Assembly: GCF_000384815.1 (NCBI RefSeq)
Contig: NZ_ARQF01000021.1
Location: forward strand, 310,001-374,000
Length of the DNA: 64,000 nt
Reading direction: 5' to 3'
Source of the DNA: Halodesulfovibrio aestuarii DSM 17919 = ATCC 29578
GTDB taxonomy: Bacteria; Desulfobacterota; Desulfovibrionia; Desulfovibrionales; Desulfovibrionaceae
The position numbers were made by a program, and so were the translations under genes. Numbering within the stretch: position 1 is the stretch's first letter; each line of letters opens with the position of its first letter. The notes under the pieces were generated by a model. The model was given only the letters and a program-made list of their open reading frames with translations, ran no database searches and had not been told where the DNA came from. Below are positions 52,761-57,122 of this stretch, one piece after another.

Positions 52761-55373
52761 CTACGGAGCTACGCGAAGGATGTATGCTTTATCTACGTTA
52801 AGATATTTTTTAGCAATTTCCTGAACATCTTTCGGAGTCAGTTTTTGTACTTGTTCCACAATGTCTTTGTTGTAGCTAAGCGGCAACTGTGCTGTTGCCA
52901 GTCCTGCTGCTTCTGCACTGCGGCTGCCGAGGCTCTGGTGACCACGGTAGTACTGACCTCGCATTAAGTTCTGTCCACGTTTGATCTGTTCTTCGGAAAG
53001 CGGTTTGTCCTGAATCTCTTTAATGATTCTACGGAAACCATCCATAGCGGCTTCTTCTTTATCCGGTTCAGTACCAATATAGAAGTATGTAAAGCCGGTA
53101 ATGGTGGACTGCCAGCTGGATGCTGTCACGGTGTAACCGAGGCCGTGTTTATCACGCAGGTCATTGAAGAGTAATCCACTCTGCCCAGCAAGGATTGTCT
53201 GCATAAGCTCAAGGCCTGCTGTATCCTTGTTCGTAAGCGGCACTGTTTTAAAGATCATGAAAAGATGAGCCTGATTACGATCTTTGAGGGCGATGGACTT
53301 GATGCGGTCTTTGTTCCATGTAGGCTCAAAATTTTCAGGACGTTTTTCTGTTGGCGTTGGCAGTTGTTTTGCAAATTCGATGATTGCATCACGGTCAAAT
53401 TCGCCGGCAACAGATATTGTCCACGGCATTGCTTTCTGCTTTTTCCAGAAACCAGCAACGTCATCCTGAGTGAAGTTGGCAACATGTGCCGGAATACCTG
53501 CATGATAATAACTGTAGATAGAATCTGTGAACAGGAACGGGAACAGGTTGCGTGTTGCCAAGCCGAGCGGCTGGTCTTCGCGCAGTTTAATTCCTGCTAC
53601 CTGATCAACTTTTTCACGATCAACTTCTTCATCAGCTATTGTAGGGGACTGTACCATCTGGGAGAAGAGTTTGAGAATATCATCTGAGAAGCGGGCAGGG
53701 TAGCGTGCACTCAGAGAGAATGTTCTTCTACTTGCAGATGCTGCAATAGATGCAGCGCGGTCAGCAAGATATTCTTCGATTGCAGGAGCATTCATTGAAC
53801 CTGTGCCCTTTGTTAGGACACGAGCTGCAAGAACGGAAAGACCTTCCTGACCTTTTGTAATGAGGGAGTCACCACCCATAAAATCCATATCGATTGCAAC
53901 ATATGGCAATGTGTTGTCAGGAATCAGAATCAGCTGGCGACCGTTTCCGAGATCAACAACTTCTTTTTTACCGATGGCGTTTTCAGCAGTAGTCTGTTTT
54001 TTTACTGCATCCTTTGATTCCCAATTGTTGACGATTCGTGCTGTAAGTGTAGTTTCGCTTACAGAAGCTTCTTGCGGGGCAAGAACTGTCGCCTGCAGAC
54101 GCTCAGGTTTAATGTAGGTATCAATGAGGTTCTGAAGCTGTTCGCGATTTACGTTTTCAACTTCATCGAGGTAGTTTTTTTCGCCCTGTTCTCCGCCAAA
54201 GAAGAACCCGAACATGCCGATCTTAGAAGTAAGACCGGAAAGCGTTTCCTTTGCACGGAAAAGAGAGTCCTCAAGGTTTAAGCGAACGCGGGCAATGTCT
54301 TCATCTTTGAATTCAGACGCCTTGAGGTTGCTTAAATCTTTCATTAATTCCGGCCAGAATTCGTCCAGCTTATCTGCATCAAGTACTGCAGTAATGTAGA
54401 TAAGACCTGCGCGCTCAAAAGCGTATGCTGATGCAGAAATGGAATCAACAAGCTGTTTTTCATACTGATATTTGCGATAGAATGGGGATGTTTTATCGCC
54501 ACCCATGAGCTGTGCCAGCATGTCGATACCTGTGGTGTTAACATCTTCAAATCCCGGGATAGGGAAAGAAATACCAAGGTATACTTTGTTCCACTTGCCT
54601 TTCACTACCTGAACGTTAGGGCCGGACATGTCTAACTTGTCAATGTTGACAACAGAAGGTGGAGTAACGTTAGAAGTGTTTTCTAAGCCACCGTAAAGTT
54701 TTTCTGCTTCCGCAAGTACTGTTTTTTCATCCACATCACCGCACACAACCAGCAGCATTTGCTGCGGTTGATAATGCTTTTTAATGTAGTTGGTAATATC
54801 TTCGCGTGTGAAAGAGTTGATAGTATCGCGGTAGCCGATAATAGGCCATGCGTAGGTAGTTCCTTTCATTGTCTGCTGTTGCAGTTTTTTGAAAAGAAGG
54901 CCGTACGGACTGTCTTCACCGCGTTCCAGTTCGGAAATAATAACTTTTTTTTCTGACTCAAGTTCTTTTGGATCAATGTTAGCAAAAAATGCCTGATCAC
55001 GTAAAACTTTCAAGCCAGTTTTCCATGCATCCGCAGGAAGATCTGCAATATATACTGTATAATCAAAACTGGTAGCAGCGTTGAGGTAGCCACCTAATTC
55101 TTCGATACTTGCAGCGATCTGGCCTTTTGCATAGTTTTTTGTACCTTTAAAAACCATATGTTCAAGCACATGGCTGATGCCAGCTTCCCTCGGCTCTTCA
55201 TAGCCGGAACCAGCATGTACATACAGTCTTGTTGAGACAAGCGGAAAGCGCTTGTCTTCATGAATCAAAACCGTAAGACCATTTTTGAGTTTAGTCACCG
55301 TTGCCGCAGATGCTGCGGTTGCAGTGCTCATCATAAGAACTCCACAAAAAAGAATAAAAAGTCGTTTGAACAT
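52761..55373 (-). CDS. Periplasmic M16-family zinc peptidase (two-domain)
   Basis: The 870-residue protein has a signal peptide ending SAA near residue 24. The first M16 half has the catalytic motif HVLEHMVF (HxxEH, inverse zincin) with the later Glu in SELERGEDSPYGL. The second half has no HxxEH and is the inactive partner, including GLGYTVTASSWQ and FYIGTEPDK. It resembles pitrilysin or PqqL-like proteases that degrade peptides in the periplasm. The frame extends upstream, but ATG 55373 has AGGAGG. It is divergent from the CheA-like gene. Substrate unknown. Confidence 0.93.
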   Translation of the reverse strand: MFKRLFILFCGVLMMSTATAASAATVTKLKNGLTVLIHEDKRFPLVSTRLYVHAGSGYEEPREAGISHVLEHMVFKGTKNYAKGQIAASIEELGGYLNAATSFDYTVYIADLPADAWKTGLKVLRDQAFFANIDPKELESEKKVIISELERGEDSPYGLLFKKLQQQTMKGTTYAWPIIGYRDTINSFTREDITNYIKKHYQPQQMLLVVCGDVDEKTVLAEAEKLYGGLENTSNVTPPSVVNIDKLDMSGPNVQVVKGKWNKVYLGISFPIPGFEDVNTTGIDMLAQLMGGDKTSPFYRKYQYEKQLVDSISASAYAFERAGLIYITAVLDADKLDEFWPELMKDLSNLKASEFKDEDIARVRLNLEDSLFRAKETLSGLTSKIGMFGFFFGGEQGEKNYLDEVENVNREQLQNLIDTYIKPERLQATVLAPQEASVSETTLTARIVNNWESKDAVKKQTTAENAIGKKEVVDLGNGRQLILIPDNTLPYVAIDMDFMGGDSLITKGQEGLSVLAARVLTKGTGSMNAPAIEEYLADRAASIAASASRRTFSLSARYPARFSDDILKLFSQMVQSPTIADEEVDREKVDQVAGIKLREDQPLGLATRNLFPFLFTDSIYSYYHAGIPAHVANFTQDDVAGFWKKQKAMPWTISVAGEFDRDAIIEFAKQLPTPTEKRPENFEPTWNKDRIKSIALKDRNQAHLFMIFKTVPLTNKDTAGLELMQTILAGQSGLLFNDLRDKHGLGYTVTASSWQSTITGFTYFYIGTEPDKEEAAMDGFRRIIKEIQDKPLSEEQIKRGQNLMRGQYYRGHQSLGSRSAEAAGLATAQLPLSYNKDIVEQVQKLTPKDVQEIAKKYLNVDKAYILRVAP

Positions 55374-55577
55374 TCCATGCCTCCTGTTGCCTAAGCAAAC
55401 AACATGTTCAAAAGGTAGTGTACGCAATGGTTACAATTTGGCAAGGAGAACCATCGGTTGTGACATACAGGTTATAGTGGTACTTCGCAAGCTGTGTGTA
55501 CATTGGACTCATAACAGGGTATGGTGCTGCAACGTATTGCATGCCAAGGGAATTTCCCCATACGGAGTGATGTTTGA

Positions 55578-57122
55578 ATGCTGGATTCGCTTGTTGGAAC
55601 AATTCTGACAGACGTACGAACTGTACTTGAAGACTTGGATCCATTCCTTTTGGAACTGGAAGTGTCTGCTGAGCGCGCAGATGCAGCTCTGCTTTCTACA
55701 ATATATAATACAACCCCGTTGCTTTCTAACTGTTTTAATTTACTTGGGCTGACTGATGCAGTGGCTCTGGTTGATTTGTTGCAGCTTGTGACCGGAGCGT
55801 TCCGGAAACATGTATTATCACTTTCGTATGTACATATTCGGGAAGTTATACGTGGTTTCAGTGCATTGGTGGCGTTTCTTGAAAATGCCGATGCTGAAAA
55901 AATTTCTATTGCAATTGATGCATTGAAACAGTTGGTTGAAGAGGCTTGGCCAGCTGAGTCAAAAACAATGCTTGCAGCACATTCGTTGCGTGATCCTCTA
56001 GGTCACGTTGCTTTTTCTATTCTCGGGTATGTCTTGCAGGATGACTTCATGCATGAGTGCACATGTTTTGTGCTTGAACTGGATGACAGTGGTGTTCTTG
56101 CAGGAACTCAGTTTACTCCATTTTCCTTATTACAATTCCTTTATAAAAGTGGGCAGGTGCTGGACGTGCAGTTTGCTCCTCCAGAATCTGAAGCATACTT
56201 GCAAGTTCTGTTTGCGACTGTACTTGATGAAGAGCAGTTACAGATGGTGCTCGATATTCCTGCAGATGCTATCCATGTTGTTTCCACTTCTTCATTTGGT
56301 TCAAAGAGTCCTGCATGGGACGTTACAGCCTGGACGGATGCCTTTAGTGGCGCCGATGGTATGCACCACAACGCTATAGAAGAAGTTGATAAATCCAGTG
56401 TTGGTGCAGGGACTTCAGAGGTCGGTGATTCGGTTGATGGCTGTTTGTACGAAGATGCTAAGGGGCAAAATGTACCTGCTTCTTGTGGAGTAGTTGAAGA
56501 CTCATATCAGCAGAGTGAATATGCACCACATGCTTTTTCTTCCAATTCGTCAGCAGCTGATAAATTTGCGTTGCTCGAAGCAGAGTTGGAAGGAGAATTG
56601 TTTGAGGAAGCGCTTTCGGCAGGTATTGCAGCTCAATCGTTTGATAAAGCAAAACAGGAAGTAGCGGAAAAGGCAGAAGCAACACCTTCTTGTCGTAGCG
56701 AAATTTCGTCAGATGAAAAGCAGACTCCAGCCAGAATTCCTGATGACCTTCATAGTGAGATAAGGCAGGAACCGGTTCGACAGACAAAAGAACTGCACGG
56801 CTTTGTTTATGAAAGTGATCATAACAATGTTAGTTTGTATGTCTCCAAAGTTGAGAATGCTGTGGAAGCAGAGCAATTGCGAGCAGCATTGCTTGAGTTG
56901 TTGTCATCCCACGCGGATGTTGAACTGGTGTTACGTACCCCGATTCGGGGAAATTTAGAATTGCTGCAATTGCTGTTGGCAGCGGCGATGACAGCAGGGT
57001 TACGTCGCCAGAACTTTCGAGTTTCCGGCGAAGGAAGAGAAAGTGTTGCCGAGTTGCTTGCAAGTTGCGGCATAACGTTTGATGTGCTGAAAGCGCAAGG
57101 TATTGCTGACTTCTTAGGCTAG
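55578..57122 (+). CDS. Degenerate CheA-like protein: HPt-like, P2-like and STAS-like domains, no kinase
   Basis: The 514-residue protein begins with an HPt-like helical domain (~5-105). The usual H-x-x-K-G segment reads TTPLLSNCFNLLGL, so the phospho-accepting His is replaced by Pro47. Residues ~150-235 (FVLELDDSG...FTPFSLLQFLYKSGQVLDVQF) resemble the CheA P2-like domain. The C-terminal ~410-514 resembles a STAS domain (SLYVSKVENAVEAEQLRAALLELL, LELLQLLLAAAMTAG). There is no ATPase or CheW domain. A Ser/Glu-rich linker joins the parts. It probably acts as a scaffold or anti-regulator in a chemotaxis-like pathway. Confidence 0.7.
   Translation: MLDSLVGTILTDVRTVLEDLDPFLLELEVSAERADAALLSTIYNTTPLLSNCFNLLGLTDAVALVDLLQLVTGAFRKHVLSLSYVHIREVIRGFSALVAFLENADAEKISIAIDALKQLVEEAWPAESKTMLAAHSLRDPLGHVAFSILGYVLQDDFMHECTCFVLELDDSGVLAGTQFTPFSLLQFLYKSGQVLDVQFAPPESEAYLQVLFATVLDEEQLQMVLDIPADAIHVVSTSSFGSKSPAWDVTAWTDAFSGADGMHHNAIEEVDKSSVGAGTSEVGDSVDGCLYEDAKGQNVPASCGVVEDSYQQSEYAPHAFSSNSSAADKFALLEAELEGELFEEALSAGIAAQSFDKAKQEVAEKAEATPSCRSEISSDEKQTPARIPDDLHSEIRQEPVRQTKELHGFVYESDHNNVSLYVSKVENAVEAEQLRAALLELLSSHADVELVLRTPIRGNLELLQLLLAAAMTAGLRRQNFRVSGEGRESVAELLASCGITFDVLKAQGIADFLG

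Follow-up and report, generated by a model that had tools for sequence, protein, structure and literature searches.

A kinase-less HPt-P2-STAS protein of Halodesulfovibrio without its acceptor histidine: a possible orphaned descendant of a chemosensory partner-switch adaptor

The Arabidopsis protein AHP6, which acts in cytokinin signalling, is a pseudo-phosphotransfer HPt without the acceptor histidine and has no STAS or P2-like part. CrsR, the namesake of one half of the CrsR/CrsA pair of Shewanella, is a single three-domain protein. In Shewanella oneidensis the chemosensory locus Che1 "could be involved" in the control of CrsR/CrsA, according to the available part of the report (PMC9855816). 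In Pseudomonas aeruginosa the HptB-HsbR-HsbA system combines an HPt, a REC-PP2C-kinase regulator and an antagonist in one cascade (available part of PMC6482189), and in Rhodobacter sphaeroides, with its split CheA3/CheA4, the His-bearing part of CheA is encoded apart from the kinase part (PMC6829392, likewise in part). Here we compare with these systems a gene at positions 55578-57122 (forward strand) of a 64,000-nucleotide stretch of the Halodesulfovibrio aestuarii DSM 17919 genome (contig NZ_ARQF01000021.1, positions 310,001 to 374,000; hereafter the window). Its 514-amino acid (aa) product combines HPt, P2-like and STAS parts without a kinase or CheW, and it may well descend from an HPt-P2-STAS adaptor as an orphan that no longer depends on phosphorylation and acts by binding alone to predicted partners.

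The open reading frame (ORF) starts with ATG and is intact in all six members of what we refer to as the window clade, or Halodesulfovibrio clade (the window sequence plus five further genomes, in which the gene order is the same and the protein is 57-70%, on average 64%, identical). Direct comparison of the window protein with Pfam returned no kinase dimerisation, HATPase, CheW or Hpt match, the only hits being STAS_2 below the cut-off (E 0.022) and S1_2 (E 0.15), the latter taken as chance; a comparison with NCBIfam found nothing. Relatives are 19-28% identical to it. A family profile of 22 rows, the window protein being one of them, matched it with 487.7 bits over profile positions 1-430, and a single-sequence search from the window protein recovered relatives without the profile.

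The N-terminal part (residues 1-110, positions 55578-55907, forward strand) very probably adopts the HPt fold of the CheA P1 type. We identify it as such because seven of the eight kinase-less relatives scanned outside the clade are above the Pfam cut-off for Hpt, the alignment to relatives, at 19-25% identity overall, is gap-free across the HPt motif (NTTPLLSNCF in the window, RTAHSIKGSA in relatives), and the N-terminal AlphaFold model matches known P1 structures. The models were built from two sequences, the window protein and L031 from Halodesulfovibrio spirochaetisodalis, a clade member that came from a separate scan of genome contigs, which gave one relative. For residues 1-123 the model has five helices, a predicted local distance difference test score (pLDDT) of 78.6 and a predicted template modelling score of 0.71. 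Its best Foldseek match in the PDB is the P1 domain of Salmonella CheA (1i5n; TMq 0.85, probability 1.00, root-mean-square deviation 2.1), with a modest E-value of 6.5e-3; ranks 1-7 are all CheA P1 domains, and designed helical bundles appear from rank 8.

Judging from the alignments, the phospho-acceptor of this domain is absent, as the sequence-only reading had proposed on seeing a proline in place of the phospho-histidine. The Pro47 codon lies at 55716-55718 (forward strand; NTTPLLSN vs RTAHSIKG), and the H-x-x-K-G motif reads P-L-L-S-N in the window protein, the residues flanking the lost His being altered as well (K to S and G to N). Among 31 kinase-less members (the 22 of the family plus nine more from an order-wide search) this position is occupied by His in 23, Pro in six and Thr in two, the six prolines being those of the six window-clade sequences. 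A phospho-acceptor His elsewhere in the helix had been named as grounds for abandoning that proposal; within residues 1-124 no substitute His is common to all six clade members, His78 being found in the window protein only and His86 only there and in L031.

A STAS fold is predicted by modelling at the C terminus (residues 404-514, 56787-57119, forward strand), where the Ser/Thr that is phosphorylated in antagonists is, by alignment, absent. The full-length AlphaFold model (mean pLDDT 39) is usable for the STAS part only, with pLDDT of about 53-78 at residues 401-500. Foldseek matched this part to RsbV/SpoIIAA and other antagonists (probability 1.00, E 3.8e-3), including RsbV in complex with RsbW, and STAS_2 is above the Pfam cut-off in seven of the eight kinase-less relatives scanned outside the clade. 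The usual phospho position is occupied by Glu461 (codon at 56958-56960, forward strand), in the context N-L-E vs D-V-T or D-S-x-G, in all six clade members. Across the 31 members it is Ser/Thr in 12, Glu in six, Ala in nine and His, Gly or Asp in four. The separate STAS domain fused to an RsbW-type kinase in the operons of relatives reads D-S-x-G in all five cases examined.

The P2-like domain (residues 130-240, 55965-56297, forward strand; assigned by the family profile and hhalign) is shared with the rest of the family, the segment of the window clade matching it with an hhalign E of 7.6e-18. It also sits at the P2 position of CheAs of 1039-1106 aa in the order, which score 321-339 bits with the whole profile. 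Against the linkers of short CheAs the family segment gave a weak hhalign match (probability 12%, P = 0.0025) and the segment of the window clade alone gave none. The "P2-like" label is confirmed by the position of its counterpart in the long CheAs, and CheY binding by it is putative.

A search with the window protein matched 30 of 59 genomes, its own included; the kinase-less form is present in 22 of the 59, and a long open frame (836-1107 aa) alone in eight, the one scanned (L052) being a CheA by Pfam. The order-wide search gave matches at E <= 1e-10 in 246 of 297 genomes, which is not a family count, the last of the matches listed being HPt-only. The succession of HPt-like, P2-like and STAS-like parts without kinase or CheW, read from the sequence at the outset, is borne out by Pfam in relatives, by the models and by the P2 position in long CheAs. 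As for its being unusual, HPt-P2-STAS without a kinase is a family of the order, and the unusual part is the change of His to Pro.

Genome context divides the 31 members into 18 operon-type loci and 13 orphans, the latter all of genera g1/g43 and including the window. Partner genes stand beside the family gene in whole or in part at all 18 operon-type loci. Directly upstream and on the same strand, 18 of 18 have matches to both an RsbW-type kinase and a STAS protein (the two halves were tested separately, with positions counted from where the profile match begins); these share a single frame at 11 loci and are separate genes at seven. Sixteen of the 18 also have a REC-PP2C gene upstream, and 13 have a CheA gene downstream. 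Pfam supported these assignments in the operon examples scanned (Response_reg with SpoIIE; HATPase_c_2 with STAS; Hpt, H-kinase_dim, HATPase and CheW) and found a receiver domain in 6/6 REC-PP2C proteins scanned; of five such proteins, two matched a regular expression written for the phospho-Asp motif of REC. At L049 a 142-aa RsbW-like ORF had no Pfam hit, and the match of a reading frame at this locus to the RsbW half is weak (40.5 bits); the called family ORF of L139 carries a spurious upstream extension. The long CheAs have similar surroundings: STAS, MCP, CheW, REC-PP2C and RsbW genes around L052, and REC-PP2C, RsbW, CheB and CheR genes around L053 (its CheW gene being assigned through clustering with that of L052), with REC-PP2C and RsbW-type genes downstream in both. 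Because of this gene order, with CheA, REC-PP2C, RsbW-type and STAS genes, the ancestral setting would be one in which a chemosensory system and a partner switch are joined. None of the 13 g1/g43 members has the RsbW-type kinase and STAS directly upstream, and the operon gene set is absent within 5.4-9 kb on each side, except that G005 has one weak match, to REC only (29 bits). Elsewhere in the window genome an RsbW-STAS fusion had no match at E <= 0.001, and none of the five matches listed of seven was a full-length REC-PP2C.

The origin of the orphan form can be followed through a divergently oriented upstream gene, at 52761-55427 of the reverse strand in the window, which we take from its sequence to be an M16-type peptidase gene; it serves as a synteny anchor (identified by neighbourhood matches) and lies outside the proposed machinery itself. 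It is present at 13/13 orphan loci and at three of the 18 operon-type loci. Beside it, G023 has REC-PP2C, RsbW, STAS, the family gene and CheA; G019 has REC-PP2C, an RsbW-STAS gene and the family gene, with no adjacent CheA; G250 has the RsbW-STAS gene and the family gene, with neither CheA nor REC-PP2C adjacent; and the 13 g1/g43 genomes have the family gene alone. These stages show that the operon shrank stepwise to an orphan gene. On the tree, which is weakly rooted on the long CheAs (support 53/35), G023, G019 and G250 fall into one group of 18 (support 100/99) together with all 13 orphans and two members from g16.

Loss of the acceptor His, seen in eight of the 31 kinase-less members, needs two changes on this tree, both among orphans: to Pro in the Halodesulfovibrio clade and to Thr in G005/G006, which nest within a supported group with the His-bearing G003 and G004. 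Because five orphans (G003, G004 and three g43 members) still have the His, parsimony places the loss of the partners first. The loss of His is found in 0/18 operon-type members vs 8/13 orphans (Fisher p 1.6e-4), an association that is not independent evidence because only two tree events underlie it. The stem branch of the window clade is long (2.24 changes per column).

The three domains look to be under purifying selection. Calculated as mean pairwise dN over mean dS for the 15 pairs of the window clade, dN/dS (the ratio of nonsynonymous to synonymous change) is 0.116 for HPt, 0.112 for the P2-like domain and 0.118 for STAS, and 0.70 for residues 245-325 of the linker; saturation of dS affects none of these pairs for HPt, 5 for P2-like and 7 for STAS. 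Mean amino acid identity in the clade is highest for HPt (88%), with 73% and 72% for the P2-like and STAS domains. The dS of the HPt-coding part is low (0.69), and 83-96% DNA identity within the clade is also seen at window positions 55428-55640, which cover the intergenic region and the first codons.

Neither usual phospho-site of the window protein can work, yet the gene has been retained, and it is for this reason that we infer an adaptor acting by binding only. In other genera, gene order and domain content suggest that chemoreceptors probably act on a chemosensory CheA, which would phosphorylate the HPt His of the adaptor; the phosphate, or the bound state, would then pass to the REC-PP2C phosphatase, which would determine the phosphorylation state of the STAS proteins that the RsbW-type kinase controls. 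Dephosphorylation of STAS would lead this kinase to release or capture its target, and chemoreceptor input would in this way shift the partner switch. On the line to the Halodesulfovibrio clade the partner genes were lost stepwise, the HPt His became Pro and the STAS site Glu, and the three folds were kept. The HPt surface may still hold a receiver domain or a CheA partner, the STAS domain, fixed in one state, may bind an RsbW-like protein or some other partner of STAS domains, and the long variable linker would join the two ends. In its most specific form the proposal is that a former phosphate relay has become a constitutive link between chemotaxis receivers and anti-sigma-type kinases, through a pseudo-HPt and a pseudo-STAS domain, with intermediate stages surviving in relatives; this we put forward tentatively, as one possible role. 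The bridge between chemotaxis and stress signalling suggested by the sequence-only reading gains support, as regards the ancestral system, from the arrangement of CheA, REC-PP2C, RsbW-type and STAS genes; the window genome no longer has these neighbours, and a bridging role of its protein today is putative.

Several points weigh against this reconstruction. Neither the window protein nor L031 has a Pfam Hpt match (L031 has no STAS_2 match either), and profiles made from the six window-clade sequences alone matched neither HPt nor STAS chains in the PDB. Five operon-type loci have no adjacent CheA, with at least 5.8 kb read downstream. The 31 members are those fetched and not a random sample (for example, three of the seven g43 genomes listed). 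The retention of His in five orphans means that orphaning alone does not explain its loss. The presence of Ala in nine and of His, Gly or Asp in four of the 31 STAS domains implies that a phosphorylatable site is not general, and Glu need not mimic phosphate. Finally, the dN/dS values of the P2-like and STAS domains are rough because of the saturated pairs.

The sequence-only reading had also considered a decoy, and a dead HPt competing with live ones for CheY-like receivers or CheA, so as to damp chemotaxis or a phosphorelay while STAS merely places or tethers it, is a somewhat doubtful explanation that deserves consideration. It agrees with the retention of HPt as the best conserved of the three domains, with the replacement of His in every clade member, and with AHP6 as a parallel. 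A pure HPt decoy would not need the P2-like and STAS domains, which have a dN/dS similar to that of HPt, and the changed residues beside the lost His imply that the receiver-binding face may have changed. As to possible partners of the window protein, its genome has one CheA (962 aa, two Hpt domains), in which the family profile found no P2-like domain. This CheA gene (in G000 C21:188000-203000, L124) follows a CheW gene as well as genes that we take from their sequences to be CheY-like, ParA-like and CheR-like.

It is unlikely that the STAS domain is the sole effector, that is, a fixed anti-anti-sigma-like ligand (with Glu461) of an RsbW-type kinase or other STAS partner, with HPt and the P2-like domain serving only for folding or dimerisation. 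The match to SpoIIAA and to RsbV in its RsbW complex would fit, as would the invariant Glu of the clade and the two PP2C/RsbV/RsbW sets in the genome. The latter lie away from our gene: of three SpoIIE phosphatases the two scanned are dCache-HAMP-SpoIIE proteins, both adjoining an RsbV-like and an RsbW-like gene, and nothing links them directly to the window protein. Against this reading, a phosphomimetic at the RsbV/SpoIIAA site usually weakens kinase binding, and HPt and the P2-like domain are constrained to a similar degree as STAS.

We consider it quite improbable that the protein has been repurposed outside two-component and partner-switch signalling, for instance in connection with the divergent M16-type gene. 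The constant presence of this neighbour at the orphan loci and the long stem branch of the clade could be taken in its favour, but the same neighbour already stands beside the full operon in G023, which makes it inherited synteny, and all three signalling folds have been kept. Finally, a functionless gene in decay, although suggested by the loss of both phospho-sites and of the operon partners and by faster evolution than most neighbours (64% identity, vs 84-95% for eight of 11 neighbour ORFs compared and 49-74% for the other three), can be rejected with little reservation because dN/dS is about 0.11-0.12 in three domains, and the frame is open in 6/6 genomes.

Between the P2-like and STAS domains of the proposed adaptor lies a fast-evolving linker (residues 245-403, 56310-56786, forward strand) with a conserved, helix-like stretch at residues 328-365; identity in the clade is 83% in this stretch vs 19% in 245-325 and 366-403. 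The stretch (window 56559-56672) reads DKFALLEAELEGELFEEALSAGI; by eye, similar linker segments occur in further members, an example being AALEREFERALVAEARASGM of G003. Judging from its conservation, the stretch is possibly a docking peptide. A regular expression for the conserved helix matched four of 31 members, the window protein not among them, the pattern being too strict. At the other end of the gene, an ORF in another frame (55285-55608) overlaps the start with its end. A promoter and terminator scan gave counts no higher than those of shuffled sequences, within their spread, and an Rfam scan of the window returned a tmRNA and two tRNAs only. The M16-type gene upstream appears split in L032 (G007), with ORFs of 390, 344 and 152 aa, and measures 870-888 aa in the other five clade genomes. 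Four g1 genomes outside the window clade (L128/G005, L131/G003, L133/G004 and L134/G006) have a REC-PP2C / RsbW-like / STAS set elsewhere, in G004, G005 and G006 on the same contig about 21-23 kb from the family gene; it is followed by one gene of 372-387 aa and then, in three of four gene lists, by a motA-like gene. The names in this set, motA-like included, are our presumptive assignments.

Literature searches for an Hpt domain together with a STAS domain found no open-access paper; subscription journals were mostly uncovered, and the fusion may be published there. The likeness to Shewanella Che1 with CrsR/CrsA lies in the association of a chemosensory locus with a partner switch, as in the operons of relatives; the available part of that report mentions no kinase-less HPt-P2-STAS protein (the word "hpt" occurs 0 times) and nothing phospho-dead (PMC9855816). 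The domain kinds of the HptB-HsbR-HsbA cascade are those of the relatives' operon, whereas HptB, as described in the part available, is a live HPt protein of its own that takes its input from hybrid kinases and is not fused to the antagonist (PMC6482189). The window protein differs further from that system in having no His and no neighbouring REC-PP2C. Rhodobacter CheA3, in the available part of its description, keeps a phosphorylated His domain and has a phosphatase domain (PMC6829392), where the window protein has STAS and no His. Closer at hand, the long CheAs of sister families (L052-L055 and L059, 1039-1106 aa) have an HPt and P2-like N-terminal half like that of the window protein; the one scanned (L052) continues, unlike it, into kinase, CheW and REC domains and has no STAS of its own. 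The surviving loci grade from the full operon, through operons lacking first CheA and then the phosphatase as well, to orphans with and finally without His, a natural series in which one may trace the conversion of a phosphorelay protein into one independent of phosphorylation. The operons of relatives bring together all the domain kinds of HptB-HsbR-HsbA and CrsR-CrsA, in what would be one cascade, and these intact relatives suggest that sulfate reducers, too, place partner switches under chemosensory control, as proposed for Shewanella Che1, and that an HPt-STAS fusion forms the link.
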